Shown: in pieces, positions 2,017 through 21,285 of the stretch
Layout of the letters: every line of letters begins with the position of its first letter
How positions within the stretch are numbered: position 1 is the stretch's first letter
IMG/VR virus record: IMGVR_UViG_3300010401_000009
Coordinates: 1-55,357 of that record
Source: a virus
DNA length: 55,357 nt
Strand: one strand, 5' to 3'
The notes under the pieces: generated by a model
What the model saw: the letters and a program-made list of their open reading frames with translations, nothing else
What the model was told of the DNA's origin: nothing
The model's database searches: none
Program-made: the position numbers and the translations under genes

Positions 2017-5000
2017 TCAGGCGCTGCGCGCCGCTCCAGGTTTGAACGCCGGCCCAATGCCGGCTCCCACAAGCAGAAGCTCGGAAAGCTCGAAGCTCGC
2101 GCCGAAATCCCCGTCAGCCTCGAGGTCGCTGATCAGGAATGAGATCGCCTGGCAGCGCTTGTTGACGTGGATCCGGCGCTGGTACCGCTGGGATCCGCCA
2201 CCCGGGCCACCGTAGTCGCCGGCCCCGTAGAGCCCGGTTCCGAATAGCGTCGGAGCAAAGTTCGCGTTCACGTTGCTCTCGACCGGGCTCTCATAGTCAT
2301 CGTTGTAGTCGAGCCGAAATCTGACCACGAGCCGGTGCGGTGATAGGTACTTACCAACGAAGTACGCCCAGTGCGTGCGCTGCCAGCCCTGTAGATAGCT
2401 CGCGAAGTGGAGCCATGCGGTCTCGATCACAAACGGGATGTGGAGGTAGTCGTCCTTGTAGACCCCTGGGGTCTCTACGAACACGCGGGAATCGTTGCGT
2501 AGGTAGTAGTACAGATCATCGAGGACCAGCGCGTCTATGCCTTCGTGGTTGGTGAAGGTAGACCACGCGTTGCGGTTGTAGTCCCACACCAGGGTGCGTC
2601 CGCTGTCCGTCAGGTAGACCAACCGCTGTGAGGTCGTGATGAGGGTCGTTCGCACGATGTTCTGAACATCGAATTTCTGGACGTCGTTGCCGATGTTAAC
2701 GATCTCCCGCGCCCGCGTCAGCAGCATGATCCCCTTCTTCGACTTGAACGTAACGCCGAGAGGCGTCTGGCCAATGCTGCGCTGGCTGATACAGCCGACA
2801 TCAACGGTGATCAGTTCGATCGGGGTGAATGCGTTGGAGCTTGCGTCAACCGACGGATTGGCCAGTGGACCAGGTCCCCCGAATATGAAAGCCGCGGTCT
2901 CCGAGAACGGGATGATCGTGTCGTCCATCGACACCAGACCCACGATGTCACCGCCGAACTGATCCTTGGTTACGCTGAGCGACACCGGAGCATCGAGAGC
3001 TGTATCGTCGTCGCGCTGCTGCGAGTAGCGCACCATGTTGGGATCTGTTGGGTCGGTCCAGAACAGGCGGCCCTTGCTGCTGGTGATCACGCCTCCGGCC
3101 CACGGAGCTGGGTCGTTGGATAGCACTCCACCGTTCGTATAGAGTGGCTCGCGCGTTGCGATTGCGGTATCTGAAAGGGCATCGACGAATGTCACGGTGT
3201 CGACCGTCGGATCGTTGACGACGTACCGATTGGCACCAGTGGACACTGTGGGGTCGTTGGATGTGACCTTGAACATGTCGATCGTAAGGTCGGTTCCCGT
3301 GGCCCCTTGCTGAGAACGGGCCACGCAGATGCGCGCGTTGGCGAACCGCGTGAGCCGGCACGTTGGGAGCTGGATGGAGAACGACTTGGGTCCGCCGGCC
3401 ATCGTTGCCAGCACCTTGGTGCTCACCGCCCCGCGATGGAGCTCGCCCTGCGCGTCCTGGCTCTCGTACCAGAAGGCGTAGAGGTAGGTGCCGTTGGCGA
3501 CGTTGCCTGCGCCATCGATCGTGATCAGCGTCGACATCTGGACCGGTGCACCGTTGACGTCGAAGCCGATATCAGGCGCGCAATGGAAATCTGCTTCGCG
3601 CCACTGCTCGCCATCGTAGTGCTGAGGGGCCGCGCTGGCCAGGTAGAGCCCGCGCCCGAGCGCAGCCGTCGTGTACGCCGGTTCCATGTCCAGGATGGCG
3701 AGCTTGATGCCCTGCTCGCTGAACTGGTCGCCGTTCTGTGAGCTCAGCTGGATGCGATACGGCAGCGGGCACGCGTGCGATCGCGAGTACACGTCGGTCG
3801 GTCCGAGCCCGAGCGGGATTACGCTGGGGAGCGCCTGCGTCCATGCGAGCACCCCGGCCCCGGTCGGGCGCATCAGCGACCCAGAGGCCTCGCCGGGCAG
3901 CAGGCGGGCCACGATCGTGTTCCCAGGGCTGTTGATCCCGCTGTCGTCGCTCAGCCGGAGCGCTGCGACGTACGGGAAGAAACGCACGGTGTGCGCGATC
4001 ATCACGTACACGTCGCCGTCCGTCGCCGTGGCGTCGAGCGTTGCCCCATCGTGCCACGCCCGCGACACCAACCCATGGCCGTGTAGGGTGGTTTGTATCG
4101 CATCGAGCGTGTTCGAGGTCTGGAGTACCGCACCGCTCGTCAGCACCGTGAGGTCGGATCGTGCTGCGGTGGTTTCCATCGCCCAGTACAACTTCGCGCG
4201 CCCATCGGTGCCGTTCGCCCCGAACGCAGCCGCAAGCCTGGTTGCGCCTGTCGGAATCACCCCTCCAATATTCAGAGCAGAGCGGGTAACAACGAGCGCC
4301 GAGCCAGAAAGAAACGTCGCGCTCAGAAAGACGCCGTTGCCGGCGACCATCACCGCGACAACGTGAGCTACCGGATCCCATGCGACCGCGAGCGGACCGG
4401 TGTTGCCAGCCGGGAAGGCCACGGCCGACGGGAGGCCGGTGAGGACTGACCCGATGGCCCCCTGGGGGTTCACGTATCCGACGCGGAATCCCCCGGTGTT
4501 GATCGCCCACGCGATCACGGCCGGGCGCGTCGCGAATACCCCGGATGGTCCGTTCACGGCCTGCTCGGCATCAAAGAACGGCGATGCCCCGTTGAGGTCG
4601 CTGGCGAGGATGTTGATCACCGGAGCGGCAGAAGGCGCCGCGGTGTCGATGACCGCGACCACGAGCTGGCCGCGATCCGCGCGCGTCCAAATCACCTGGA
4701 GCGACTCTCCGACCGCGATGCACCGCGTGTTCTTGGCCTGGGCCGAGGCATCGAGCTGCTGTTGGCTGAGCAGGACGTGGCCGCTCGCTGCCTCGAGCAC
4801 GGTGCACCACACGCCGCCGCGGTTGTCCTCCCACGCCACTAGGCGAATGCCGTTGCGCTCGGCGACGTCGGGCTGCGCCTGGACGGTTCCGCTGCGGGCG
4901 ATCGGCCTGGTCGTGCAGGTCGTGGCCGCGACCTCGCCGGCGTCGGCCCACGTGTCATCGCTCGGGCGGTACGAGAAGCACCGCTTGTCGGTGAAGACGA

Positions 5001-5229
5001 GGACGTCGTTGTTGGGCGAGAGCGCCATCCCGCGCGCGCCGCCGACATGCCCCCCATCGTTCTGGACCTGCGTGGACAGGGCGCGGTATCCATTCCGCTT
5101 CGAGAGCGTGAACTGCTTGGTTATCACCGCGTTCTGCAGGTCGAGCAGCTTCAGCTGGCTGACCTGCTTTTCGTCGGTCCTGGTGTCGACGCCGCCGCCG
5201 AACTGGACCGCAAACCCGCCGATGTTCAT
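2017..5229 (-). CDS. Large tail nozzle/hub-like virion protein
   Basis: 1070 residues, beta-rich, with no signal peptide or transmembrane segment. The only in-frame canonical start before the upstream stop is the ATG at 5229; its ribosome site is weak. The N-terminus (GGVDTRTDEKQ..LLDLQNAV) and the aromatic, propeller-like C-terminal half (WSTFTNHEGIDALV, HIPFVIETAWLHF, RLDYNDDYESP) resemble P22 gp10 / T7 gp12-type nozzle proteins, which close the short tail. It is roughly twice the P22 length. It precedes the S74-like and ejection proteins, as expected for tail assembly order. The nozzle assignment is by overall similarity of layout. Confidence 0.6.
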   Translation of the reverse strand: MNIGGFAVQFGGGVDTRTDEKQVSQLKLLDLQNAVITKQFTLSKRNGYRALSTQVQNDGGHVGGARGMALSPNNDVLVFTDKRCFSYRPSDDTWADAGEVAATTCTTRPIARSGTVQAQPDVAERNGIRLVAWEDNRGGVWCTVLEAASGHVLLSQQQLDASAQAKNTRCIAVGESLQVIWTRADRGQLVVAVIDTAAPSAAPVINILASDLNGASPFFDAEQAVNGPSGVFATRPAVIAWAINTGGFRVGYVNPQGAIGSVLTGLPSAVAFPAGNTGPLAVAWDPVAHVVAVMVAGNGVFLSATFLSGSALVVTRSALNIGGVIPTGATRLAAAFGANGTDGRAKLYWAMETTAARSDLTVLTSGAVLQTSNTLDAIQTTLHGHGLVSRAWHDGATLDATATDGDVYVMIAHTVRFFPYVAALRLSDDSGINSPGNTIVARLLPGEASGSLMRPTGAGVLAWTQALPSVIPLGLGPTDVYSRSHACPLPYRIQLSSQNGDQFSEQGIKLAILDMEPAYTTAALGRGLYLASAAPQHYDGEQWREADFHCAPDIGFDVNGAPVQMSTLITIDGAGNVANGTYLYAFWYESQDAQGELHRGAVSTKVLATMAGGPKSFSIQLPTCRLTRFANARICVARSQQGATGTDLTIDMFKVTSNDPTVSTGANRYVVNDPTVDTVTFVDALSDTAIATREPLYTNGGVLSNDPAPWAGGVITSSKGRLFWTDPTDPNMVRYSQQRDDDTALDAPVSLSVTKDQFGGDIVGLVSMDDTIIPFSETAAFIFGGPGPLANPSVDASSNAFTPIELITVDVGCISQRSIGQTPLGVTFKSKKGIMLLTRAREIVNIGNDVQKFDVQNIVRTTLITTSQRLVYLTDSGRTLVWDYNRNAWSTFTNHEGIDALVLDDLYYYLRNDSRVFVETPGVYKDDYLHIPFVIETAWLHFASYLQGWQRTHWAYFVGKYLSPHRLVVRFRLDYNDDYESPVESNVNANFAPTLFGTGLYGAGDYGGPGGGSQRYQRRIHVNKRCQAISFLISDLEADGDFGASFELSELLLVGAGIGPAFKPGAARSA

Positions 5230-5357
5230 CGGCGTGACGGCGACGCCACGGAGCCCGCGGCGATGCGCGACACCTGGTGCGCTGTGGTGTGTGCTACGGC
5301 CGGCATCCCGTGAATCTACTCACATAAAACAGCACAACGCAACGTGTCTCACATATG

Positions 5358-6122
5358 CTACCCCAGGACCTGGAGCACCTGTCGGATGATCGAATACGTC
5401 GGGGTCCCAGTATCGTTCGTGGACGTGATCTTGCAAAAATCCCCGGCGTGCGCCCGGTAGTGGAGCTCCATGATCGGAGTCCTGGTCAGCGACACGCCGA
5501 CCACCACTGTCCCGGTGTTCGAGTCTCCAACGGTGGCCACGATCGTAGTTGGCGTCGACGAGCTGTCGCATACGAAGTCGACATGTCCGGCCTGGCCTCC
5601 GCTCAGCGATAGCGTCATCCCAATCGAAATCGACGCCGTGTACTCGGTGTCGTGAGTGGCGTCGAGCTGGACCGCCGACCCGTTCATGGCGAGGGTCGGC
5701 GTCACCGTCGAGGTCACGAACGCGCCCTGCCCGGCCGGCCCTGTGGCCCCGGTCGCTCCCGTTGCCCCCGTGGATCCCTGCGCACCGGTGGGGCCCTGGG
5801 GTCCGGTGGCGCCGAGTCCGATGGCGGGGTTCGGGTACCAGCGGTTGTCTCCCGTTCCGCTGTCGTCCTCGAAGGCGATCACCGCGATCGACGCGTACGC
5901 CCATTGCGAGTTCGGACCCATCGCGAAGTTGGTGCCGTTGCCGTCGGGGTCTAGGCACACGAGGTACCAAGACCCATCGCCGTTGTCGTGGGTCAGGATC
6001 GCCGGGTAGATGTGCGACGAGTCGTAGCGGTAGAGCACCGACTGGCCGACCACACCGGAGGCCGATGCAAATCCGGTGAACGCGACGATGAAGGCGAGCA
6101 CGACGATGATGCGATTCAGCAT
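5358..6122 (-). CDS. Exported collagen-like protein
   Basis: 254 residues from the ATG at 6122 (GGCGGG just upstream). Residues 1-21 form a clear Sec signal peptide (MLNRIIVVLAFIVAFTGFASA). A globular domain follows to about residue 100, then roughly ten collagen-type G-X-Y triplets (residues 104-133, GATGPQGPTG and GATGATGATG), then a beta-rich C-terminal domain with two Cys. Collagen triplets are common in phage fibres, but a signal peptide is not, because virion proteins assemble in the cytoplasm. It is therefore likely to be exported from the infected or lysogenic cell. It lies just upstream of the nozzle-like gene and shares its direction. Confidence 0.7.
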   Translation of the reverse strand: MLNRIIVVLAFIVAFTGFASASGVVGQSVLYRYDSSHIYPAILTHDNGDGSWYLVCLDPDGNGTNFAMGPNSQWAYASIAVIAFEDDSGTGDNRWYPNPAIGLGATGPQGPTGAQGSTGATGATGATGPAGQGAFVTSTVTPTLAMNGSAVQLDATHDTEYTASISIGMTLSLSGGQAGHVDFVCDSSSTPTTIVATVGDSNTGTVVVGVSLTRTPIMELHYRAHAGDFCKITSTNDTGTPTYSIIRQVLQVLG

Positions 6123-6162
6123 CCCGCCAGCGTACCATGCCCGGCCGGCCGCCGCGGTCAGG

Positions 6163-6423
6163 TCACCATGGGATGCCGGAGCCGGCGACGTCAACTGCTG
6201 GGATCGCGCACCATGCGGGGTCCAGCAGAGCGATCTCCGCGTCGCTCATCCGGCGCCGTGCATGGAGCACGACCGAGCTGCGATCGCGCCTTGTGTTGCC
6301 CGCGCCCACGCCGGCGATCAGCCCGAACACGGTGTCGCGAACGACGCCCCTCGTCTTGAGCCCGCACCGCTCCCACGGTACCTGAGCAAGGTCGCTCCAC
6401 ACTGATATACTTGCGTGCCACAC
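6163..6423 (-). CDS. Small hypothetical protein (uncertain)
   Basis: An open frame of 86 codons from a GTG at 6423, with GAAGG seven bases upstream. Its codons have GC-rich third positions like real neighbours, and it fills the otherwise empty interval between the 43-codon ORF and the collagen-like gene. There is no recognised domain. Start choice is open: GTG codons at 6429, 6423 and 6402 are all possible. Competing frames are Arg-rich and look like shadows. Confidence 0.35.
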   Translation of the reverse strand: MWHASISVWSDLAQVPWERCGLKTRGVVRDTVFGLIAGVGAGNTRRDRSSVVLHARRRMSDAEIALLDPAWCAIPAVDVAGSGIPW

Positions 6424-6447
6424 GGGCACGCCTTCGAAGGCGTCCAG

Positions 6448-6579
6448 TCACTTGTTGACGGTGAGGATCGTCGATAGCGACATGGAGCCGATCCATAGCG
6501 CCCGGTAGAACTCGCTACGGAGCGCGTCCCTTGCGTTCGCGCAGGGATTCGCAATCGCGATCAGCTGGCGCGGCGTCAC
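6448..6579 (-). CDS. 43-residue small protein, translationally coupled
   Basis: The GTG start overlaps the stop of the preceding coiled-coil gene (GTGA). The product (TPRQLIAIANPC...EFYRALWIG) has a balanced composition, unlike the Arg/Ser-rich alternative frames. It has a mildly amphipathic helix and no known family. The overlap architecture matches the three genes upstream, which are joined by ATGA overlaps, so it is probably the last member of that operon. Confidence 0.5.
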   Translation of the reverse strand: MTPRQLIAIANPCANARDALRSEFYRALWIGSMSLSTILTVNK

Positions 6580-7097
6580 GGCGCCCTCCGGAATCCCGGA
6601 ACTGCCGCCGATATGGCAGCGCGGTTGAGGGCGGCGTCTGCCTCTTCATGCTCGCGCCGACGCATCCGGTCGCGGACCGCGCCCACCATAGCCTCGAGAT
6701 CGGAACGGGCGTCCGCGAGCACCTTGGCGCGTCGCTCGAACTCGGCGTCGAGGTCCTTGCTGGCCGCGAGCTGGCCCTCGAGACCGCGGATGCGATCGGC
6801 ATCCGCCACGGCGTTCGCTGCCGCTGCGGTCACGCGGTGCTGGAGCCCGGCCACGCGGCACTTGAGATCGTCGCGCTCGCGCTCCAGCACCCGGTACGAC
6901 ACACCAAGCTCCGCGATCCGCTGGCGGTCAAGCTCCTGAGCGGCCTGGTGCTCTGCCCGCGCGTTGACCAGCGCGGACTCGACCATGGCCGCGGCCTTGG
7001 CGGGCCATGCGGCGAGCTCGGCGGCGCCGCGCGAGATAAGCAACGCGCTTTGCCGCAGACGGTCGGTGAGCTCCTCGATCCTGCGCGCGGGCTTCAT
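6576..7097 (-). CDS. Coiled-coil protein of unknown function
   Basis: 173 residues, almost wholly helical, with long runs of Ala, Glu, Arg and Gln (RIEELTDRLRQ; DDLKCRVAGLQHRV; RGLEGQLAASKDLD). It starts at an ATG that overlaps the stop of the zinc-ribbon gene (ATGA). No enzyme motif. Its operon neighbours are also unknown proteins downstream of the 358-residue gene, and the operon leads into the structural region. Confidence 0.7.
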   Translation of the reverse strand: MKPARRIEELTDRLRQSALLISRGAAELAAWPAKAAAMVESALVNARAEHQAAQELDRQRIAELGVSYRVLERERDDLKCRVAGLQHRVTAAAANAVADADRIRGLEGQLAASKDLDAEFERRAKVLADARSDLEAMVGAVRDRMRRREHEEADAALNRAAISAAVPGFRRAP

Positions 7098-7519
7098 GGG
7101 GCCTCCGGAATGTCGGCGTGCCTCGCAGCGGTTGCGCCGGCGATCGCGGCTCGCTCGCGCAGTTCAGCCCGCATGACTCGGTAGGCGTCCCGGGCTATCA
7201 CGCCAGTCTCGGTGAGCTTATACAGCGGCTTCTTGCCCGGCATGCTGCGTTCGACATCGGGCGTGATGAGCTTGAGCTTGACCATGGTCTTGCCAAGCAA
7301 CGGGCACCGAGCGATCCTGATGTGCGCAACGGCTATCGTCGAAGGATCGCTGAGCTCCTCTAGCAGGTCAGCGCGGTCCTTGTTGAGGCGAGCCTTGTCG
7401 GGCGCACCGCATGCTGGGCACTTCTGGGTGACGCCGAGTTGTGCTTGGCATCCGCACGAGCAGACCGCAGTCACCAGGGTGCGACGGGACGCATGGGCTC
7501 TCACGAGCGCGTCTCTCAT
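7094..7519 (-). CDS. Zinc-ribbon / winged-helix-like protein
   Basis: 141 residues from the ATG at 7519, which overlaps the preceding stop (ATGA). The first third has a four-cysteine ribbon (CSCGCQ...KCPACG). The C-terminal half (MVKLKLITPDVERSMPGKKPLYKLTETGVIAR) looks like a winged helix: a short wing with GKKPLYKLTETG followed by a recognition-type helix. A DNA-binding regulator is likely, but the target is unknown. Confidence 0.65.
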   Translation of the reverse strand: MRDALVRAHASRRTLVTAVCSCGCQAQLGVTQKCPACGAPDKARLNKDRADLLEELSDPSTIAVAHIRIARCPLLGKTMVKLKLITPDVERSMPGKKPLYKLTETGVIARDAYRVMRAELRERAAIAGATAARHADIPEAP

Positions 7520-8592
7520 GGCGCCACCGCCGGGCAGGAGCGCGCTCCGGGGATCGGGCAACCGTCATCGACGTCGACATCATGCTCAGCGAGTGGCTGC
7601 CCGCACACCGCGCACGACCCGTCGTCGCGCGGCGTCCTGATGCGGGCGGGCAGCTGCGCGAATGAGGCGTCGCGCGGAATCGAAGCGGCAATGCGCTCGG
7701 CGTCCGTCGTGCCGTTGCGCGGCCGCGGACCGGCGAACTTCGCGACCGCGTCCCGAGCGGATCCGGGGATCACGTCAAGCGCCACGGATGGGCGGTATCG
7801 CGCCGGTCCATCGATCGGGTCAGGGTTGGCCGCGCGCCGCGCGATCTCTGCCCGCTCTCGGATCTGCACCACGCACCAGGTCCGCGCCTGGGCGATGATC
7901 TCGGCTGGGCTCTTGCCGCGCGCCAGCGCCCTCCCATCGGCCACCGGGCCGCCGAGCCCGAGCGCGACGATGCAGGTCTGCCGAGCGAGCGCGGATGTCA
8001 CGGTGCCATCGCGCAGGGTGCGCGCGTACGCCAGAATCTCGTGGTCGGTGACGTCGTGCGGACCGGAAGCGTCGAGCTCGAGCGCTGGCTGGGATCGTCG
8101 TAGCTGGTCGGCGAACCTGCGATCGAGCGATGACAGTACGGCGAGCGCGCGCTCCGCGGTGTCGAGCCTGACCAGCGCGGTCGGGGACAGCGGCTCCCCG
8201 CGGGCCAGCATGCGCTCGACCGCGACGTTGGCGATGAGCCACTCGTCGATGACGGCCTGCCAATCGGGCTGGGTCTTGATCCAGCGAGCCATCTCCTCGC
8301 AACCCGCGCGCCCTACCACCTTCTGGGCGGGGGGGCCGGCAAGGAACGATCGGGCCAGGTCCTGAGCGCGGTGGCGGTCCGGTGGCTGCAGATCCGGGCT
8401 CGGCGCGCCGTCCGGCATCTCGCCTGGCGCGGTCAGGATGGGCTGCGTTGGTCGCTCGTCCATCCGCGCTCTGCGGGCTTCTGCGGCCTCCGGGGGGAGC
8501 CCTCCAAGGGTACGCTCGTCGGGTCCGATGGGGCGCGATCCGGGAGGGGTTGTTGGTTTGGTGTCTTCTGGTGGTTGTCGGTGGGGAAGCAT
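7516..8592 (-). CDS. Hypothetical protein with C-terminal zinc motif; first gene of its operon
   Basis: 358 residues if the ATG at 8592 is used. That codon lies inside a 12-bp-arm inverted repeat. An alternative ATG at 8463 (MDERPTQPIL) would leave the repeat in the leader. The N-terminal 75 residues are Pro-rich and disordered; the middle is helical; the C-terminus has CAVCGQPL....C....C, a likely zinc site. No family was recognised. It heads a four-gene coupled operon and faces away from the plus-strand RHH gene, so the two may share control. Confidence 0.65.
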   Translation of the reverse strand: MLPHRQPPEDTKPTTPPGSRPIGPDERTLGGLPPEAAEARRARMDERPTQPILTAPGEMPDGAPSPDLQPPDRHRAQDLARSFLAGPPAQKVVGRAGCEEMARWIKTQPDWQAVIDEWLIANVAVERMLARGEPLSPTALVRLDTAERALAVLSSLDRRFADQLRRSQPALELDASGPHDVTDHEILAYARTLRDGTVTSALARQTCIVALGLGGPVADGRALARGKSPAEIIAQARTWCVVQIRERAEIARRAANPDPIDGPARYRPSVALDVIPGSARDAVAKFAGPRPRNGTTDAERIAASIPRDASFAQLPARIRTPRDDGSCAVCGQPLAEHDVDVDDGCPIPGARSCPAVAP

Positions 8593-8619
8593 CGATTCCA
8601 GGTTTGCATCGATGCTTCC
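8585..8619. promoter_or_regulatory. Perfect 12-bp inverted repeat (operator or leader hairpin)
   Basis: GGAAGCATCGAT (8585-8596) and ATCGATGCTTCC (8608-8619) are exact inverted copies separated by 11 bases. The left arm contains the annotated start codon of the minus gene at 8592. Either a dimeric repressor binds here, or the mRNA folds so that the start codon is sequestered. The RHH protein encoded 230 bp away is a candidate ligand. Confidence 0.6.
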
Positions 8620-8843
8620 GGAGTGCCGAGCGGTTTAGCCTCACAGGCACTGACCGCGATCGTGCTTGGGCGCTCTGCGCTACCGGCAGCGTGCGGCACT
8701 GACCACTGCGCCAAAGTCCGGATTGTAGAGCTCCCGCTACGGCGGGCCAGCACGCCCGCAGCAGCCTTGCTTAGTTCCAGTGGAGATTGCTCGCCCGACA
8801 CGTGCTGGCATCGCGATTGCCCTCGAGTGACTCGAGGTGACCA
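8597..8843. other. Divergent intergenic region
   Basis: 247 bp between the minus operon and the RHH gene. It holds the right arm of the inverted repeat, a 10-bp direct repeat GGCACTGACC (8646-8655 and 8696-8705), and the palindrome in front of the RHH gene. No clear -35/-10 pair and no credible ORF were found. Confidence 0.5.
8821..8837. promoter_or_regulatory. 17-bp palindrome next to the RHH ribosome site
   Basis: CCTCGAGT-G-ACTCGAGG is a perfect palindrome around one central base. It also reads as two CTCGAG boxes three bases apart. It abuts the ribosome site GAGGTGA of the RHH gene and ends six bases before its ATG. Autoregulating RHH repressors typically bind such closely spaced half-sites at their own promoters. 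Confidence 0.6.
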
Positions 8844-9023
8844 ATGTTTCCAAGCGAGAAGAAGACCAAGAGAATCGTGATGCGCGTACCGGACAGCCTG
8901 CACAACCGCATCGCCGAGCTCGCATCCGCCGACAACAGAAAGATCGCAGACTGGGCGTACCTCGTGGTAAAGCGCGAGGTTGAGCGATCACCAAAACGTT
9001 CATCGTCCAGGCCTTCACAGTGA
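8844..9023 (+). CDS. Ribbon-helix-helix (Arc/MetJ/CopG-type) DNA-binding protein
   Basis: 59 residues with a strong ribosome site (GAGGTGA, six bases before ATG). A beta strand KKTKRIVMRVPDSL is followed by helix NRIAELASADN and helix KIADWAYLVVKREVE, the canonical RHH order, with the strand able to pair in a dimer and contact DNA. Length fits the family (45-60 residues plus a basic tail). RHH proteins act as dimers or tetramers on tandem half-sites. The palindrome at its own ribosome site suggests autorepression. It is followed by the sigma-54-activator-like gene after 82 bp in the same direction. Confidence 0.85.
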   Translation: MFPSEKKTKRIVMRVPDSLHNRIAELASADNRKIADWAYLVVKREVERSPKRSSSRPSQ

Positions 9024-9105
9024 CTCCCGTCGTAGAGCATCGCCTTGGCCCGCCGCGAGCATCGCAGCCGTCCCACGGTCGAATGATCGATCGCAGGAGG
9101 ACAGC

Positions 9106-9933
9106 ATGGAAGATTTCGCTGATGACCCCAATTCCTACGAGGAACCCACCCCGGCTCCTCCACCGAACATCACCCAGTACCTCGAGAGGCTGATCGGCTG
9201 GGGGCCGGAGCATGCGTCAGCCGTTGCGCGCGCAGCTGCTGCCGTCGAGCTGGCTCGCCAGCGACTCTCGCACCTGGCGCTGTTTGGCCCCGGCGACCTC
9301 GTTCCGATCGCGATGTCCATCCATCGACGCTCGCTCGGCGGTGAGCGTCCGTTCGTGGTGGTTGACCCCCGGCGTCTGGTAGACCCATGCTGCGGACGAT
9401 CACAGGCGCGCGCCATGCCGACCCTCGCAGCTGCCATGGACGCGGCGCAGGGGGGCACGGTGTGCATTCGCGCGGTCCGGATCCCGCGCGACTGGTACAC
9501 GGCGAGCGGCCGACTCGCCGACCCGCGCGACGATGTCAGGCTGATGGTGGCTTACCCGCCGACCCGCCTCGGAGACCTCGAACTCGCGCGGCCGTCACCC
9601 ATCGTCATCGCTCCGCTGGCCGGCCGTGACATCGCTCGGCTCATCGACGAGTACGCCGAAGAGGCGCGCGCCGACCTCGACATGCCGGCACCGGTCACCG
9701 CGGATCAGCGCGTCTGGATCACCGAGTTCTGCCACGACCACAACGCCGTCGAGGTGGCCGTGCGCCGATTCATCGCGCTTTCGTGCACGAGCGGCGTGTG
9801 CGATGCGGCCTACCACCTCGGGATGGCCCCGGTATCGCTCTCGAGGTGGATGAGGCGCCGGGGGCTGACCGTGCGAGCGGTGACCGGGCTCGACCCCTTG
9901 CCCGGCGCCCCGGGCCATAACACCGACACGTAG
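9106..9933 (+). CDS. Degenerate sigma-54-activator-like regulator (AAA+ relic plus HTH)
   Basis: 275 residues from the ATG at 9106 with an excellent ribosome site (AGGAGG, six bases). Residues 57-187 follow the order of an NtrC-type AAA+ domain: ALFGPGDLVPIAMSIHRRS in place of the Walker A helix, PFVVVDPRRL, QGGTVCIRAVRIPRD in place of GGTLFLDEI, VRLMVAYPP for the VRVIAAT strand, and IVIAPLAGRDIARLIDEY for the PPLRER-DI segment. The Walker A GKE, the Walker B acidic pair and the GAFTGA loop are all missing, so it cannot hydrolyse ATP. The C-terminus (AAYHLGMAPVSLSRWMRRRGL) is a Fis-like HTH. It may bind DNA without activating, or interfere with host sigma-54 regulation. Confidence 0.6.
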   Translation: MEDFADDPNSYEEPTPAPPPNITQYLERLIGWGPEHASAVARAAAAVELARQRLSHLALFGPGDLVPIAMSIHRRSLGGERPFVVVDPRRLVDPCCGRSQARAMPTLAAAMDAAQGGTVCIRAVRIPRDWYTASGRLADPRDDVRLMVAYPPTRLGDLELARPSPIVIAPLAGRDIARLIDEYAEEARADLDMPAPVTADQRVWITEFCHDHNAVEVAVRRFIALSCTSGVCDAAYHLGMAPVSLSRWMRRRGLTVRAVTGLDPLPGAPGHNTDT

Positions 9934-10176
9934 AACTCCGGACATGGCGCGCGCATGCGCCGCGAGCGCCTGAGCGCGCAGCGGCATGCACTCGATGTCA
10001 TGCCGGGTGGTTGCGCCTGCGTTGCTCTGGCGCGCTACGAGCATCTCCGATGCGGCATGAGCGCCCGCCAGGCCGCCACACCAACGCGCTCGCAAGGAGA
10101 CCAGCGATCGCGCCACCAAGACGACTCGGCGGGCCAGAGCACCATGCCACGCAACCGCGGTCGTGGGGTAGCGCAT
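9934..10176. other. Intergenic stretch without a confident gene
   Basis: Frames are open on both strands (plus from 9955, minus from 10176), but each runs into a better-supported gene in antisense and has Arg/Ala-biased composition. No promoter or terminator with a U-run was seen. A short plus-strand piece (ARYEHLRCGMSARQAA) looks faintly HTH-like. Confidence 0.4.
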
Positions 10177-10431
10177 TCAGCGCTTGGCGCCACCGATCTC
10201 GGGCGCCGGCGCGATGGCCACGTCGAGCGCGTCAACCTCGGAGAGCAACGCCCTGACGTGCGCGCGGCCGGAAGTCAGGCACAGGAACCGCGGCAGCAAA
10301 CGACGCGTCTCGGCGCACGATCTGCAGTGCTCGCCTTCGGAGTCGACGAACTCGGCCGCGCAATCCCTGCATCTGCGCGTGACCGGTCGAGACCGCGCCG
10401 TCGCCACAGCATCTTCGTCGGCTACCGACAT
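10177..10431 (-). CDS. Small zinc-ribbon protein
   Basis: 84 residues. CRDCAAEFVDSEGEHCRSC makes a four-Cys zinc site in the middle, followed by a helical C-terminus (HVRALLSEVDALDVAI). The composition is natural, whereas the opposite frames are not. It stands alone on the minus strand between two plus-strand genes, so it would need its own promoter. Function unknown. Confidence 0.5.
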   Translation of the reverse strand: MSVADEDAVATARSRPVTRRCRDCAAEFVDSEGEHCRSCAETRRLLPRFLCLTSGRAHVRALLSEVDALDVAIAPAPEIGGAKR

Positions 10432-10691
10432 CGTATCCAGTGTACAGGTTCCGGGGAAGCGGCGCGGCTCCCTGTCCGGTGGTGCGAGGTATCACGCCTC
10501 ACCGCACACCGCGCCGCTTTCCCGACTGTGCAACGGTGCCACTACCGATCACGTAATCCAATCCGGAATGACAGTCTCACCTTTGCCGTTGCATGGCCGG
10601 TGACGTTTTGTTGTAGTGCGCGCGGGCGCCACGGCGCCCTATCAACATGGCGGCTTTCCCTAGCCGCCCTCACAAGGAAAGGTATCGACGT
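10432..10691. other. Intergenic region upstream of the secreted-protein gene
   Basis: 260 bp containing a 16-bp palindrome GGGCGCC-AC-GGCGCCC (10624-10639) and a hairpin GGCGGCT/AGCCGCC (10649-10655 and 10662-10668) just before the ribosome site. These probably control the plus-strand gene at 10692. No convincing -35/-10 pair was found. Confidence 0.45.
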
Positions 10692-11642
10692 ATGAGAAGA
10701 CTGTGTTTCGCGTTCCTGTTTTCGTTGTTTTGTAGCGCAGCATCAGGTGGTTGCGACCAGCTGAGCGATGACCCGGCCAGCTCTCAGGTGGTAGCGGCTG
10801 ACACCTCGAGCGGGTTCACGATCAACCCGGCGTCGGGGTGGCCAGATCCCGGCCAGGGCCAGAACTGGATCCGGCTCGCTAGCACCGTGACCGGGACCGG
10901 CGCGTGGAACGTCGGGCTGTCCCTTCCGGTGGGTATCACAGTTCCCCAGATCGCCACCAGCATCATCGACAGCTCGACGTCCGACGTCGTGATGATGCTC
11001 GTGAGCTACTCGGGCGCCAGCCTCACGACCTTCACGATCCTCGGCCAGGCCAACTCCAACGGCACGGGCGCGCAGACGCTGATCATCCCCGGCGGCCACG
11101 TCGTGACCTCGACCGACAGCCTCGTGATCCGGTTCACCACGCCGGGGTCGACTTCGACACCAACCGTAGGCGCTATCGGGGTGGGTGCCATACCTGCGCT
11201 GGCATCGACCAAGCGAGTTCACATCAACGCTGCAGCAGCCGCCACGAACACTGACGCGCCCGCTGCTATCCTGGGTGCGGGTACCACGTGGTATGTAACC
11301 AATCCAACACGCCTATTCTACCCTCTATCGATGGCCACAGGAGATCGCATTACTGGATACCGAGTGTGGGCTGGTAAGTTCAGCGATCTTCACACGGTGC
11401 TCTGCGCCAGGCTATTTCGCTCAGACTCAAGCCTAACGGTGTCGGGTAACGGCGGTAACACCGTAGAGGTAAATAAGCAGTGTTCATCGGCCTCATCTCC
11501 AGGAGCGATCACACTTGGCGCAGACACGATCAGCGAGGTGGTTGGCGACGGCGCATCGTACAGTATATCCGTAGACTCAAGCAGTGGATCGGCTGTCGAT
11601 ATGTTCGGAGATGCCGAGCTAACGTTCGCAACGTCGCCTTAG
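10692..11642 (+). CDS. Secreted (lipo)protein sharing a C-terminal domain with the convergent tail-fibre gene
   Basis: 316 residues; ATG at 10692 with GGAAAGG nine bases upstream. Residues 1-20 are a signal peptide (MRRLCFAFLFSLFCSAASGG) ending at a Cys that could be lipidated, although the lipobox is imperfect. The middle is Ser/Thr/Gly-rich beta structure. The last 120 residues (RLFYPLSMATGDRITGYRVW ... SPGAITLG) align with the end of the opposing gene (QILCPVNLTAGRVATTWSVF ... APGAITLG). This is a single gene on the plus strand inside late minus genes with its own upstream palindromes, i.e. a moron-like cargo gene. Its last four bases overlap the opposing gene. Codons in the 3' third are AT-richer than in neighbours. 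Confidence 0.7.
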   Translation: MRRLCFAFLFSLFCSAASGGCDQLSDDPASSQVVAADTSSGFTINPASGWPDPGQGQNWIRLASTVTGTGAWNVGLSLPVGITVPQIATSIIDSSTSDVVMMLVSYSGASLTTFTILGQANSNGTGAQTLIIPGGHVVTSTDSLVIRFTTPGSTSTPTVGAIGVGAIPALASTKRVHINAAAAATNTDAPAAILGAGTTWYVTNPTRLFYPLSMATGDRITGYRVWAGKFSDLHTVLCARLFRSDSSLTVSGNGGNTVEVNKQCSSASSPGAITLGADTISEVVGDGASYSISVDSSSGSAVDMFGDAELTFATSP

Positions 11643-12736
11643 CCGATCGACCATCCGAGTAATTTATCACCGGTGGCAACGCCGCCACCGGCAGTTTCAA
11701 TCTCTAGCACATGGTTGGCGGATACAGTGAACGTTCCGGTTGTGCCGAGCGTGATTGCGCCCGGGGCGTTGGCGTTGTTAGACGCAGTGGCAAGCTGCGT
11801 GCGCACGTTGGTCGACATGTTCTTGTCCCAAAGCGTTGCAGTCAACGTGGTTGCGTTGCTGGTCGCCTTGTTGAAGAACACAGACCACGTTGTCGCTACA
11901 CGACCTGCCGTGAGATTTACTGGGCAGAGGATTTGTTGCGCGCCGACACTGAGGTCAATGAACTCACCGGTTACGCCGTTAGCCTTAGTGAAGGTGTATC
12001 CAGCACCTGATGCGAATATAGCTTCACCGGCAGCGTGGGGCTCCTGCCCAACGAATCCGATGATGCCGGTCGCATCGACCTGCAGAGGTATCGGGCCGGA
12101 TGGCAGCGCACCAGGTAGCGTGAGCTGGAACGTGCTCGCCAGCCCGGCCGGCGCCTTGATCGTCACCGAGTTGGTTGGTGCGGGGGTGTTTCCCACCCCG
12201 AGGAACTCGAAGAAGCTGATGTCCGAGGTCCGCTGCTTCGCGAACTGGCGCACCCCGGCGCCGGTCTGCTGCTGGAACAGGTAGGCGTCCAACGCATCGA
12301 CGAACGAGACCAGCGCGCCGACGCCGTTGTAGTCGCCCCCGATCCCCCCGGTGAAGGCGTTGATGTTCATCGCGGCGCCCAAGGTCAGCTGCACGTTGGC
12401 GCCCACCTGCGTGCGCCAGTAGAGCTCGCCGGAGATGGTCCCCGACGTCCCGTCGCCCACGAACAGAGACCCGTTGAGGCCGATGGGCGGCGGCACCGTG
12501 GCGAACGCGATGGCCTTCAGCCCCGTGAACGCCCGCTTGTTACCCCCGGCGTCGAACATCGGGAAGTCGGCGTCGGGGTTGATGGTCGAGAGCTGGATCC
12601 GCGCCCCGGCCCCCGGCGCGTGGCTGTGGGCGTCGATCGCCAAGAACATCGCATCGAGCAGGACATCCCAGACGTCGCCGTCGCCATGGTCGGTCGGCCG
12701 GATCAATCCCATGTTGGGTGTAGCAGGCTGTGGCAT
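11639..12736 (-). CDS. Tail fibre/appendage protein
   Basis: 365 residues with a good ribosome site (GAGGAGCCAGCT-ATG). The N-terminus (NMGLIRPTDHGDGDVWDVLLDAMFLAID) is typical of virion-anchored appendage proteins, followed by repeats of short beta strands. The C-terminal 120 residues form a beta-sandwich-like domain with APGAITLG, homologous to that of the secreted protein encoded convergently. It ends within four bases of that gene. Located after the glycine-rich adhesin and a small protein, it probably forms part of the host-recognition device. Confidence 0.65.
   Translation of the reverse strand: MPQPATPNMGLIRPTDHGDGDVWDVLLDAMFLAIDAHSHAPGAGARIQLSTINPDADFPMFDAGGNKRAFTGLKAIAFATVPPPIGLNGSLFVGDGTSGTISGELYWRTQVGANVQLTLGAAMNINAFTGGIGGDYNGVGALVSFVDALDAYLFQQQTGAGVRQFAKQRTSDISFFEFLGVGNTPAPTNSVTIKAPAGLASTFQLTLPGALPSGPIPLQVDATGIIGFVGQEPHAAGEAIFASGAGYTFTKANGVTGEFIDLSVGAQQILCPVNLTAGRVATTWSVFFNKATSNATTLTATLWDKNMSTNVRTQLATASNNANAPGAITLGTTGTFTVSANHVLEIETAGGGVATGDKLLGWSIG
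11670..11691 (+). terminator. Possible hairpin terminator for the plus-strand secreted-protein gene
   Basis: CCGGTGGC (11670-11677) and GCCACCGG (11684-11691) form an 8-bp stem with a 6-base loop, 28 bp after the plus gene stop, followed by a weak T-rich tail (CAGTTTCA). It lies inside the 3' end of the minus gene, so it may equally be coding coincidence. Confidence 0.35.
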
Positions 12737-14975: not shown

Positions 14976-16235
14976 TCACGGAAGGATGATCACGCAGTTG
15001 TATCCGGGGGCCTTGCAACTGAAGTTGAAGTACTCCCCCACGCGCGCCTCGTAGGAGTCGGATGCCTCTGACACCTTGATGATCGACCCCGCGCGCTTCT
15101 GGAGGAAGTTCGGCGCGGGGCCCGCGCTGAACATGCACCAGCTCGACCATGTGAGGACGTAGATGCGCTTCAGCGGGCAGCACCGGTCCGTATAGATGGT
15201 CAGGTCATGGCCGTTGAGGTTGACGCTGAACCCCTTGTAGCCAATCGTGGTCATCTTCGTCCCGTCGTACGCGACCGGAGACGTCGTGATCCACTTGCCC
15301 TCCATCTGCTTGGTGAGCGTCCCGAACTGCACCGGGTTCATCCAGACGACGTCGGGGTCACCCGAGATGTTGTCGACGAGCGCTACCGCATCCACGAGCA
15401 GGTTGGCGATGCTCTGACCCGCAGTTCCGGTGATGCGCACGCCGCCCAGGAACTCGGTCTCCGCCGTGCGGTCGACGCCATAGAACAGCGTCGAGGTGGG
15501 AGCCGTGTCGGGAACCCAGTCGGATAGTCCGCTGGGCGCGAGTGCGGTTCCGCCATTCTGACCATCGCCGTTCAGGTACACGAAGTCCGTGTTGACCATA
15601 GCGGCGATGCCCGCGGTACCGTTGCCCGTTAGGGTAAATGCGCCGGTGGCGCGCGTGACCGTCGCGATCGTCACGGTGCCGGCGCGGAGAGCGCTTCCGA
15701 GCGTCGCCGAGGCCTGCAGAATCTCGCCCTGCCGCACGCCCCACACCGAGCTGATGTCGGCGAACACGAGGTTCGGTGTGGCGACGTTACACGCACCGTC
15801 GAGCGCTCCGATCTCTCCGGCCTGAGACCGGAAGAAGCGAAAGTTGATGTAGTTGCCCTCGGCCTCGATGGCGTTGTCGAACTCGTCGAACGCGCTCTCG
15901 AACGCGTCCTCGTCTCCGGTCGCGGTCGCCTCGATGGCCTGGTTGTCGACGCGCGCCAGACGATAATGCGCCCGGCGAGACACCAGGAATGCCTTGTAGC
16001 TAGAGGTGTTGTTCGCCGCGTTCGTCACCGCGGTCGAGAACGTCGAACTCCCGCCCCCCGGCAAGGCGATCATGATGGGCTGCACCCATTCACGACCACC
16101 GGCGTTGGTCTTCTTCTGGCTCTTGGCGAGCATCCCGGTCGCCTTATTGCGCTGCATCGCCATGCGGGCGAGCTCGAACGGCGAGTAGTGCTCCTTGATG
16201 ACTGGGTCGAGTACGGTCAGATCTGTGACGGCCAT
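14976..16235 (-). CDS. Major capsid protein
   Basis: 419 residues. The N-terminal segment (DPVIKEHYSPFELARMAMQR) is followed by mixed alpha/beta sequence with DAFESAFDEFDNAIEAEGNYINFRF-type spine helices, and a C-terminal strand region (EARVGEYFNFSCKAPGYNCVI). The order portal-scaffold-this gene-adaptor and the length are those of HK97-fold capsid proteins of P22-like phages. It is expected to form the icosahedral shell on the scaffold. Confidence 0.8.
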   Translation of the reverse strand: MAVTDLTVLDPVIKEHYSPFELARMAMQRNKATGMLAKSQKKTNAGGREWVQPIMIALPGGGSSTFSTAVTNAANNTSSYKAFLVSRRAHYRLARVDNQAIEATATGDEDAFESAFDEFDNAIEAEGNYINFRFFRSQAGEIGALDGACNVATPNLVFADISSVWGVRQGEILQASATLGSALRAGTVTIATVTRATGAFTLTGNGTAGIAAMVNTDFVYLNGDGQNGGTALAPSGLSDWVPDTAPTSTLFYGVDRTAETEFLGGVRITGTAGQSIANLLVDAVALVDNISGDPDVVWMNPVQFGTLTKQMEGKWITTSPVAYDGTKMTTIGYKGFSVNLNGHDLTIYTDRCCPLKRIYVLTWSSWCMFSAGPAPNFLQKRAGSIIKVSEASDSYEARVGEYFNFSCKAPGYNCVIILP

Positions 16236-16253: not shown

Positions 16254-17621
16254 TCAGGTTGTGGGTTGCCCGGACCGCTGCACCGCCTCGTTCCGCGCGC
16301 GGATCTTCGCGAGGGTGGCGCGGCGCGCCGCCTTCGCATCGGTGATCGCGTCGGACGGGTCGCGGGGCTGTAGCTCCGGCTTCGCTGCGGGCGTCGGTGC
16401 GGGACCTGGTGCACCACCTGGTGACGCGCTCTGCTGCGGTTTCGCGGGAGCCGCGGGCTGGGCTGGCTTCGCCGGCGGCGCGGCCGCGGGCGTAAAGAGA
16501 GACTGGATGCGGGCCGCGCGCTTGGCGAAGGCCTCGGCCTGCGCGCGATAGTAGTCGTCGGCGTACTTCACGGCGCTCGCGAGGTCAGGCTTCTGTCCGA
16601 GCTTCTGCTGCTCCTTCATGACCTCGTACACGATGACCGCCGGCTCAATTCCCCCGGTGATCTCGCGGTCGTGCAGGAAGCGGTACTGCGCCGCGGTCGG
16701 AGCGATCACCTCGCCGACCCGCTGCACGTACGCGAGTTCCTGCTGCTTGGTCTCGCGGGCGGTACGCTCCTCGGATGCCTTCTTCTCCGCGGCGGCCTCG
16801 CGATCCTTCAGCGCGCGCTCGCGCTTGTCTACGTCGGTCGCGTAGACCTTGACCATCCGCGTGGCCCGGCGCGCGTTCATACCCGTCACGTGCTCGTCCG
16901 GCACTCCGATCTTAAGGCCCTTCACAGACAGGTCGGTGATCAGGTCGGCGACCGCGGTCTTGAGGTCGTTGTCGTCGGTGATCCCGTACGTGTCCTTCAG
17001 CCATGCGATGGTCGCGCCGCCCGGGTCGTCGATCAGCTTGCGGCGGTCGGGCAGCAGAGCCTCGCGTTCCGCCAGCGCGGCTTCTCGCGCGGCGATCGCC
17101 TGCTCTCGCTCGGCCAGCTTGGGGTCGGGCGACGCCGGCGGCGACGCCGCGGGAGCCGGATCGGCTTGTAGTGGAAGATCGGGCAGCTCGGGGAACCCGG
17201 GAGGCGGGGTGACCGGCGCTGCGTCGGCCACATCCGGCTGCGCTTGGGTCGCTGCCGCGGGTACTGCGGGAGAAGCGGTCATCGCTGCAGGATCTGCCGC
17301 CCGCAAGGTCGGCGCCGGCGCATGCTCCATCGGCTGTAGGTCGTCCGCCATGTCGGCTCCCACGCCCCCCTTGGCCGCGAGCTGGCGGAACAGCGCGCGC
17401 GACTTGCCAGACCACACGCGCGGCGCCTTGGGGCCCGGCTGGGGTCCGGCGGCCTCGTCATCCTGGCCTGGGGGCAGACCGATCTTCTCTGCTGCATCGG
17501 CAGATGACGCCGGATCCGATGCAGTGGCGGCCTTGCCGGCCGGTGACGCCTCGACGCTCGCCTCCGCGTTGTTGCTGGCCGGCTCGATCGCCGGCTCGTA
17601 TCCTTCGAGATCGTCGCTCAT
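16254..17621 (-). CDS. Scaffolding protein
   Basis: 455 residues, highly charged and Pro/Ala-rich. The acidic N-terminal half is disordered. Coiled coil spans about residues 165-200 (LAEREQAIAAREAALAERE) and again about 265-300 (KRERALKDREAAAEKKASEE). The C-terminus is basic (KAARRATLAKIRARNEAVQR), as needed to bind capsid protein. It lies exactly between portal and capsid genes, and its start overlaps the portal stop (ATGA). Confidence 0.75.
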   Translation of the reverse strand: MSDDLEGYEPAIEPASNNAEASVEASPAGKAATASDPASSADAAEKIGLPPGQDDEAAGPQPGPKAPRVWSGKSRALFRQLAAKGGVGADMADDLQPMEHAPAPTLRAADPAAMTASPAVPAAATQAQPDVADAAPVTPPPGFPELPDLPLQADPAPAASPPASPDPKLAEREQAIAAREAALAEREALLPDRRKLIDDPGGATIAWLKDTYGITDDNDLKTAVADLITDLSVKGLKIGVPDEHVTGMNARRATRMVKVYATDVDKRERALKDREAAAEKKASEERTARETKQQELAYVQRVGEVIAPTAAQYRFLHDREITGGIEPAVIVYEVMKEQQKLGQKPDLASAVKYADDYYRAQAEAFAKRAARIQSLFTPAAAPPAKPAQPAAPAKPQQSASPGGAPGPAPTPAAKPELQPRDPSDAITDAKAARRATLAKIRARNEAVQRSGQPTT

Positions 17622-19504
17622 GAGACTCCTGGGGGCAGTGGTGCGGGTAGCGGCATGCCGGCGGCTGCCTGCGAAGTCATCCCGCCGAGCGGGTCGGGGA
17701 AGCCGGATGGCCCGGGCGGTCCTGGAGGCCCGGCGGCGCCGGCAGGCGGCATGACACCAGGGTTGCCGGGCTGCCCTTGGATCGCTGGTCCGACGGGTTC
17801 CGGCATCGGCGGGGGCGCCAGCTGCTTCTCGAGCCCATCGAGCATTTGCAGGAACCAGCGGTAGCGGCCGAGGTAGACGTCCTTCGCCCCCTCGGCAAAC
17901 GCGTTGCTGTACTCGCCGATGATGATCTCCTTGGCGAGCCCCGGCGGCGTGAGCATGAACGGCGTGGGCACGCAGTCCTCGAGCGGAACCGTCAGGTCGC
18001 CGAGCATCTCCGCCAGCTTCTGGAGCGCGCGGATCGGTCCGAGCATGTGTCGGTTGGCCGCGGCGATGTCTGGCTCGTCGAACAGGCTGGCGATCAATAG
18101 CGGGTTCGAGAACAGCCCGGGGATCTTCATCATGTCCCCGACCGTGTCGAGCTTGCCGGCGCGCGCCTCGGGCAGGAAGTTGATCGGCTCGATGTTGAGG
18201 TGGAATCCGCCGCCGTCGAAGTCGAACTTGTCCCAGTCGATCTCACGGATCCACGGCGCGAGTTCGGCCTTCGACTTCTTGTCGTCGGCCTCGGTCATGA
18301 GCAGCTTGGCCTCATCGATCATCGCCGTCCCGCAATCCACCCGGCTCATCGAGTACTGGAGATCGAGGTACGAGAACCGGTCGCTCTGCAGATCGTCCAT
18401 CGTGTCGAGCGCCTTGCCCGACGCGTTGGGCCCCAACGTGCTCTTGCTCGAGGCCGCGAGCTGGCTGATTCCGGCGATCTCGTACATCTCCTGGATGAGC
18501 CACCGGAGCGTCTGGATCGCCTGATCGCTCGCGGGATTCGGAGCGAAGTACTTCGGGTCTGCGTCGTCGGTCTCGATGACCACGGGGTCACGCGCTCGCA
18601 GGTGCCCCTTGTTGATGTTCGAGCCCCGGCGCGCGAAAATCTTCAGGCCGGAGCCCCAGTAGATCGCGGTCTGGATGTCGCTCCACAGCTCGTTGACCTT
18701 GTTCTGCGACCCGGCGAGCTGCTGCACGAGGCCGATACCCAGGAATCCGCGGAGCGCCGGCGTCCATGTCACCCGCGCAAGAGGGAAGCGCGGCCGATGC
18801 CACCCGCTCTCCTTGAGCGGCGGGCCCTGGTCGCGGATGCCGATGAGGTGCTTGCCGTCGTCGGCGCCAGGGAAGCTCGGTAACCGCCAGGCCTTGATGA
18901 CCTCGATCTGGTCCTTATCGATCGGCGCGTCGTAGTCGTACGGCGCCCAGATGTCGCGCGTCGCCGGCGCGGCCTTCATGATGCGCGCGCGCGCCTCCGG
19001 GAACTTCGCCGCAAGCACGTCGCGGTCGAGCAGCTTCACGCGCGCCAGTGTCCACGGCCAATCGTTGTGCCGCGGCTCACCGTCGTCGAACACGAGCTCG
19101 CTCCGCGGGAAGCGCTCTGGGATGACGTCGCCGCCGATGCGCAGGATCTCAGCGAACCCGTCGCCGCGCACCACCGCGTCGCGGAGCTGGAGCGGCATCG
19201 TGCGCTCTATGTTCGGCGACCCCATCTTTCGCCGAATCACCCGGCTCGCGCGCCGCGCGTATAGCTTCTCGCTGTACTCGGCGTCGTCGGCCGAGATGAT
19301 CGGCATCGAGCGGTGCTTGCCGATCCTCGACACCACCGTATCGATCATCGACTGGATCAGATTGAGGTAGCTCGAGGCCTTCGACTGCGCGCGCAGGAAG
19401 TCCATCGCGGCGGTACCCAGCCGGCGCCCGACCGGCCGGCCCTCGTAGATCGCCTCGTGGATGAGGTCCATCGCGTGGTAGCCGCGGAGGTACGCGCGGC
19501 GCAC
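17618..19504 (-). CDS. Portal protein (start uncertain)
   Basis: 628 residues from a GTG at 19504, the first canonical start in frame. The sequence shows portal-type features: QSMIDTVVSRIGKHR near the N-terminus, a long helical middle, IQEMYEIAGISQLAASSKST, and a Pro/Gly-rich C-terminal tail. Upstream of 19504 the same frame stays open to about 19735 and reads like protein (GWWRLSGEEALDALWQWSDV), which resembles the missing N-terminus, yet contains no ATG, GTG or TTG. The true start may be non-canonical, near AAGGAC at about 19613-19618. It forms the DNA entry ring and docks TerL. Confidence 0.8.
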   Translation of the reverse strand: MRRAYLRGYHAMDLIHEAIYEGRPVGRRLGTAAMDFLRAQSKASSYLNLIQSMIDTVVSRIGKHRSMPIISADDAEYSEKLYARRASRVIRRKMGSPNIERTMPLQLRDAVVRGDGFAEILRIGGDVIPERFPRSELVFDDGEPRHNDWPWTLARVKLLDRDVLAAKFPEARARIMKAAPATRDIWAPYDYDAPIDKDQIEVIKAWRLPSFPGADDGKHLIGIRDQGPPLKESGWHRPRFPLARVTWTPALRGFLGIGLVQQLAGSQNKVNELWSDIQTAIYWGSGLKIFARRGSNINKGHLRARDPVVIETDDADPKYFAPNPASDQAIQTLRWLIQEMYEIAGISQLAASSKSTLGPNASGKALDTMDDLQSDRFSYLDLQYSMSRVDCGTAMIDEAKLLMTEADDKKSKAELAPWIREIDWDKFDFDGGGFHLNIEPINFLPEARAGKLDTVGDMMKIPGLFSNPLLIASLFDEPDIAAANRHMLGPIRALQKLAEMLGDLTVPLEDCVPTPFMLTPPGLAKEIIIGEYSNAFAEGAKDVYLGRYRWFLQMLDGLEKQLAPPPMPEPVGPAIQGQPGNPGVMPPAGAAGPPGPPGPSGFPDPLGGMTSQAAAGMPLPAPLPPGVS

Positions 19505-20965: not shown

Positions 20966-21285
20966 CACCCACCTCGCCCGATCGCAGGCTGCAGCTCGGT
21001 GCCCGGCACCTTCTCGCCTGCTACCCGCCGGTAGAGCTCGCCGCCGAAGGCCTCCATGATGCCGCCGTCCGGGCGCTCGTCGTCGCGATCGCTGCCCGGT
21101 GTCGGGCGGTGCAGCTTGATCGATGCGCATCCCACGCTCAGCTCGTCGACCTCGAAGCCTCCATCGCGCAGCCGCTCGAGCGCCGCCACCAGCGCTGCCG
21201 CATCACCGGTAAGCGCCGTACCCGCTGTACGGGTCGCCTTGTTCGTCTTGTGGCTCACAGATTGCGCTCTCAAGTTCTCGCTCAT
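20965..21285 (-). CDS. Hypothetical protein after TerL
   Basis: 106 residues if the ATG at 21285 is used, overlapping the TerL 3' end by 83 bp. A GTG at 21189 would remove the overlap. The common part (ALERLRDGGFEVDELSVGCASIKLHR ... GELYRRVAGEKVPGTELQPA) is a compact alpha/beta protein. Its position between TerL and the portal cluster is typical for small packaging or head accessory proteins. Confidence 0.6.
   Translation of the reverse strand: MSENLRAQSVSHKTNKATRTAGTALTGDAAALVAALERLRDGGFEVDELSVGCASIKLHRPTPGSDRDDERPDGGIMEAFGGELYRRVAGEKVPGTELQPAIGRGG

Follow-up and report, generated by a model that had tools for sequence, protein, structure and literature searches.

The window, meaning the whole stretch of DNA analysed here, is a 55,357-base virus record from IMG/VR whose structural genes are carried on the minus strand. 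The features relevant to the locus are given below, where G001 is the related record IMGVR 3300005841_000046 and L112 is a related 15-kb contig.

44.9-46.9 kb: RecT and YqaJ
21203-23068, minus strand: terminase
17618-19504, minus strand: portal
14976-16235, minus strand: major capsid protein
11639-12736, minus strand: P0002, tail-fibre-type protein of 365 residues
11642-12028, minus strand: fibre tip domain of P0002, residues 237-365
11639-11642: four-nucleotide overlap of the P0001 and P0002 stop codons
10692-11642, plus strand: P0001, predicted exported and probably lipidated protein of 316 residues with fibre-tip-type domain(s), with an ortholog in G001 and a homolog in L112
11196-11639, plus strand: C-terminal fibre-tip domain of P0001, called C1
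10872-11195, plus strand: N-terminal beta-sandwich of P0001 (residues 61-168), possibly a diverged fibre-tip-type domain, common to the G001 paralog and L112 (AlphaFold2 strands, pLDDT ~70)
10692-10754, plus strand: signal peptide and lipobox SAASGG/C with Asp at +2, by sequence pattern
10674-10691, plus strand: SD-like AAGGAAAGG and spacer ahead of the P0001 start (ATG at 10692)
5230-11638: enlarged accessory slot from fibre to g3, holding g4-g9 and P0001 (fewer than 30 nt wide in relatives that have no gene there)
2017-5229, minus strand: g3, large tail or internal virion protein (phrog_511, E = 2.6e-4) with relatives in the g3 scan, forming the far edge of the slot

No relative of P0001, P0002, the capsid or the portal was found in INPHARED, and neither the two proteins nor the fibre tips match a Pfam or PHROG family at a meaningful score. 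P0001 has no PADLOC match of weight, its C-domain has no plasmid match, a PDB search by sequence returned no relative, and a capsid scan of bacterial genomes found no host. A single search of the window for a tyrosine integrase (PF00589) found none, in a record that may be incomplete. Elsewhere in the window, the minus-strand frame at 41370-41909 gives a weak match to the Mom family (PF25680, E = 2e-4, under the family cut-off), and that at 41912-42547 a strong match to PHROG 12600 (E = 3e-56), a family of unassigned function.

The initial annotation placed P0001 at 10692-11642 on the plus strand and P0002 at 11639-12736 on the minus strand with overlapping 3' ends, and these positions are correct: the two genes meet tail-to-tail and have the TTAG at 11639-11642 in common, an overlap that is also 4 nt in G001. 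Comparison with G001 identifies P0001 as a real gene, 64% identical to the copy in that relative and with dN/dS of 0.17 in the N-domain and 0.12 in C1, against 0.06 in the fibre tip, all rough values because synonymous sites in C1 are close to saturated. These ratios indicate purifying selection on P0001. No sigma-70-like promoter was found ahead of the gene, using a consensus that may not be that of the host. At the DNA level there is no long inverted repeat between the two C-domains, which speaks against an inverted duplication at that level.

Export and lipidation of P0001 were predicted by eye and by pattern, without a dedicated predictor. The N-terminus of P0001 is MRRLCFAFLFSLFCSAASGGC followed by DQ and that of the G001 ortholog is MIRAYLTFLSFMVLCIAATGC followed by DP; both match the general lipobox pattern, with AATGC-D of the relative in register, and in both about 40 linker residues precede the domains. 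The L112 homolog has a Cys-rich N-terminus in which the lipobox and its cleavage site are ambiguous. P0001 had been described as an exported protein, and while predicted export stands, the SAASGGC lipobox refines this description from a plain secretion signal to a putative lipoprotein anchor. In E. coli, Asp at position +2 after the lipidated Cys is the inner-membrane retention residue (the Lol rule). The Asp at this position suggests, by the enterobacterial rule, which the host may not follow, that P0001 would be kept in the inner membrane.

The C-terminal domain of P0001 is, by profile comparison, a clear member of the fibre-tip family of this phage group. The peptides quoted in the initial annotation are in register (PLSMATGDRITGYRVWAGK and PVNLTAGRVATTWSVFFNK), and PGAITLG occurs in both P0001 and P0002. 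Direct comparison of the two proteins gives a modest result (27% identity over 70 residues, E = 6e-4; local shuffle z = 5.8, a score that none of 1000 shuffles attained), and the relationship is bridged by the fibre tips of L015, L024 and L112, which match both domains. The L015 tip matches the window fibre tip at 7e-8 and the P0001 C-domain at 1e-4; the corresponding values for the L112 tip are 2e-11 and 2e-8. An HMM built from 46 fibre tips only was searched against six-frame ORFs of at least 60 residues in the window, G001, L112, L113 and 77 related loci, and it matches the P0001 C-domain at E = 3.3e-15, the G001 ortholog C-domain at 6e-12 and the G001 paralog C-domain at 1.7e-5, the nearest unrelated ORF standing at 0.15. 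Alignment of the tips with the P0001 C-domain by hhalign gives 98.0% (P = 2.8e-13, 111 columns) against 0.2% for a capsid control. The profile match and the intermediate tips bear out the claim that P0001 and the fibre end in the same domain, and with the lipobox pattern they agree with one form on the fibre and another predicted to be exported; the P0001 tip would be attached to an export signal and not to a fibre shaft. The N-domain of P0001 may be a second and more weakly related domain of fibre-tip type, as the same HMM gives 8.7e-5 for P0001, 0.022 for the G001 ortholog and about 5e-5 to 0.02 for the N-terminal domains of this lipoprotein family, and hhalign of four tips against the P0001 N-domain gives 1%. 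AlphaFold models have a pLDDT of 57 overall for P0001 (~70-80 in parts of the domains) and 35 for P0002, and Foldseek with the P0001 model returned only generic tandem beta-sandwiches (e.g. a CBM22 tandem and XepA) at TM ≤0.35. Extra proteins with a fibre-tip domain are also encoded in L060 (4165-4866, plus strand; E = 1e-7) and L067 (4098-4769, plus strand; E = 2e-4), on the structural strand and just before the fibre gene.

In G001 the genes are arranged as in the window, with a fibre that is 86% identical, and a second copy of the lipoprotein, which shares the N-domain and has a different C-domain, called C3, lies directly upstream. In L112, too, a lipoprotein of the P0001 family adjoins the fibre, and it carries C3. 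The family therefore keeps its anchor and N-domain with either C1 or C3, which indicates that exported tips, like those of fibres, are exchanged. GC3 is 0.57 in C1 against 0.89 in the P0001 N-domain, 0.61 in the fibre tip against 0.90 in the N-terminal part of the fibre, and across all loci a median of 0.69 in the tips against 0.82. Such low values fit frequent tip exchange, and other causes of codon choice in domains of this kind may apply. L112 belongs to a metagenome-assembled genome labelled Proteobacteria (Chersky.8_6), and the g3 scan found this one MAG to hold two related phage contigs, L112 and L113; their binning is a possible, weak hint at the host. Among 189 genomes of the phylum of this MAG, a match occurs only in the MAG itself, on its phage contig, which makes a fibre-derived domain likelier than a host-derived one.

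The P0001 gene sits, as comparison of related loci indicates, in a recurrent slot with varying lipoprotein cargo. The capsid and g3 scans yielded ~100 locus records, many of them overlapping or from one contig, and the N-terminal part of the fibre was found in 75 of 77 g3 loci. A closer group of 45 loci was defined by g3 similarity, with a boundary set after the data were seen. In 18 of the 45, fibre and g3 are at most 60 nt apart with no gene between them, whereas the other 27 have a gap of at least 200 nt (22 once identical copies are removed). A convergent ORF with a lipobox, its stop lying between -18 and +21 nt relative to that of the fibre, is present in 18 of these 22 gapped loci; the exceptions are L071 and L072, with other exported or membrane-type ORFs, and L053 and L068, with same-strand genes and no convergent lipoprotein. 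Adding the window, G001, L112 and L113 brings the count to 22 of 26 distinct lineages; by comparison, the same lipobox rule picks out 126 of 1710 (7.4%) antisense ORFs at other positions in these loci. In deeper relatives the slot is either vacant or occupied by genes on the same strand. Grouping of the cargo by shuffle z gives the following families, and the remaining cargo consists of singletons.

Family A: L035, L040, L057, L074, L113
Family E: L036, L042, L065, L070, L072
Family M: L041, L108, with an HExxH-like motif by eye
Family D, of the fibre-tip kind: the window, G001 and L112 only

The position and content of the slot bear on two structural or lytic explanations of P0001. One is that the protein is a second virion or tail component whose hydrophobic N-terminus arose by chance, and for this speak its fibre-tip domain and the additional proteins with a tip domain that L060 and L067 encode upstream of the fibre. 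Those copies, however, are on the structural strand, while P0001 is on the opposite one; moreover, the lipobox is found in two orthologs, and many relatives lack a gene in the slot while others carry unrelated lipoproteins there, so that we regard a virion role as highly unlikely. Spanins are unlike a 316-residue beta-sandwich protein. For this reason, and also because so many relatives have an empty slot, a lysis accessory of the outer-spanin kind is the least credible of the explanations, even with small lipoproteins present in the slots of relatives.

How does this arrangement compare with known systems? In T5, the llp gene adjoins oad, which encodes the receptor-binding protein pb5, and its lipoprotein product is made in the infected cell, excludes superinfection and presumably reduces the loss of progeny on debris (PMC9586334, PMC4728585). 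Llp is a small periplasmic lipoprotein that jams FhuA by allostery (PMC9586334), and BF23 (llp/hrs) has an unrelated lipoprotein with an equal role (PMC4728585). Coliphages such as T5 and BF23 carry genes for exclusion lipoproteins next to their receptor-binding genes (PMC9586334, PMC4728585); further cases are the Cor-type proteins and those encoded downstream of gpJ, which are small and placed by the receptor-binding locus (PMC9586334). P0001 resembles T5 Llp in its pattern-predicted lipoprotein signal and in adjoining a presumed receptor-binding gene, here that of the fibre, and the slot resembles the T5/BF23 position in that unrelated lipoproteins swap there. The analogy thus supports a match in gene order to known superinfection-exclusion lipoproteins, provided that it is the fibre that binds the receptor. 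However, P0001 has 316 residues and a fibre-tip domain, whereas Llp is small, and exclusion by P0001 would be a role assigned by analogy; the Cor-type proteins likewise differ in size and are likened to P0001 by gene position, not by family. As described, T5 Llp, BF23 Llp and Cor are small and have no stated domain in common with the receptor-binding proteins against which they protect (PMC9586334, PMC4728585), and in this P0001 differs from them.

Does the exported domain mimic the fibre of its own phage? The initial annotation read P0001 as a receptor-masking decoy, in which the exported tip would sit on the receptor that the phage itself uses, both at the infected cell and on debris, and such a reading would accord with the tip homology of P0001 and P0002 and with a gene order like that of T5 llp-oad (PMC9586334, PMC4728585). 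Comparison of C1 with 72 fibre tips argues against it, as shuffle z is 17.7 for L066, 14.0 for L078 and 11.3 for L112, with L056 also among the nearest, and only 5.9 for the phage's own fibre. In a FastTree tree of the tips, C1 groups with L066 (modest support, 0.75), and the own tip, 27% identical, ranks 15th of 46. C3 behaves in the same way, being nearest to tips like those of L065, L064 and L040 and not to those of its own carrier phages. Coupled variation of lipoprotein type and fibre tip, a further expectation of the decoy, was not seen: cargo family against fibre-tip distance gives p = 0.19, or 0.52 without G001, which makes up the closest pair, with p = 0.17 for the backbone, for 22-23 lineages with low power and few members in most families. 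An association of the short W..C lipoproteins with one fibre-tip type is not significant and is broken by L113. Lastly, if the E. coli rule holds, Asp at +2 would keep P0001 in the inner membrane and so apart from a receptor on the outside. The gene order still fits a block to superinfection, and the self-decoy detail of that proposal is not supported and is unlikely.

We tentatively favor the explanation that P0001 is an envelope-anchored moron with a role like that of superinfection-exclusion proteins. In this mechanism, one fibre-tip domain, perhaps two, would have been placed behind a lipoprotein signal peptide, and the resulting gene would be carried as exchangeable cargo against the structural strand in the conserved slot that separates the fibre gene from the following tail gene. 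P0001 would be made in the infected cell and anchored in its envelope; the many other lipoproteins that related phages carry in this slot suggest that the protein acts on the infected cell's envelope. There its tip domain may bind an envelope ligand of the kind bound by fibre tips, and bound P0001 would hinder the adsorption or DNA entry of later phages. Since its tip resembles those of other phages more than that of its own fibre, the ligand of a competitor is a likelier target than the phage's own receptor, and interference would be more probably directed against phages with the P0001 tip type than against the phage's own kind. We hypothesize further, as a speculative and improbable extension, that tip domains of competitors are moved onto an exported lipoprotein anchor as exchangeable decoys that occupy the ligands of rivals, a modular receptor competition that shares parts with fibres.

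The main rival of the exclusion reading is an envelope moron with another role, in which the tip would serve as a module that binds glycans or proteins and acts in host fitness, in adhesion or in altering the envelope; we consider it somewhat unlikely. Under both readings P0001 is like prophage morons in lying on the opposite strand, in being present or absent among relatives, and in having exchangeable content beside tail genes and a low C-domain GC3. For the other role speaks that its model resembles only generic tandem beta-sandwiches. The cargo of the slot is mixed as well (short W..C lipoproteins, a possible HExxH metallopeptidase and membrane-type proteins), which makes it doubtful that the slot as a whole serves exclusion. 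However, the one integrase search, in a possibly incomplete record, gave no sign of lysogeny, in which P0001 differs from prophage morons, and long-term lysogen conversion is less likely for this reason. A lipoprotein with a fibre-tip domain, in such a slot, makes it possible to ask directly whether phages convert adhesion domains into exclusion factors, and within one phage group the slot supplies ~20 distinct phage proteins that are uncharacterised and targeted to the envelope.

Several cargo proteins have features of their own. The L041 and L108 lipoproteins have HExxH-like motifs (MAHEVAHCAL and LVHEVLHWAL) and are possibly metallopeptidases, and family E proteins are of membrane type with a QT...NP..G pattern in five lineages that differ in their fibre tips. 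The slot of the window itself measures 6.4 kb, enlarged by genes g5-g9 (6448-9933), of which g9 (9106-9933, plus strand) points towards P0001 and matches no Pfam family. At 5358-6122 on the minus strand, this slot also encodes an exported-looking protein with collagen-like repeats (MLNRIIVVLAFIVAFTGFASA...) that is 58% conserved in L014, and a signal peptide on such a fibre-like protein is odd.
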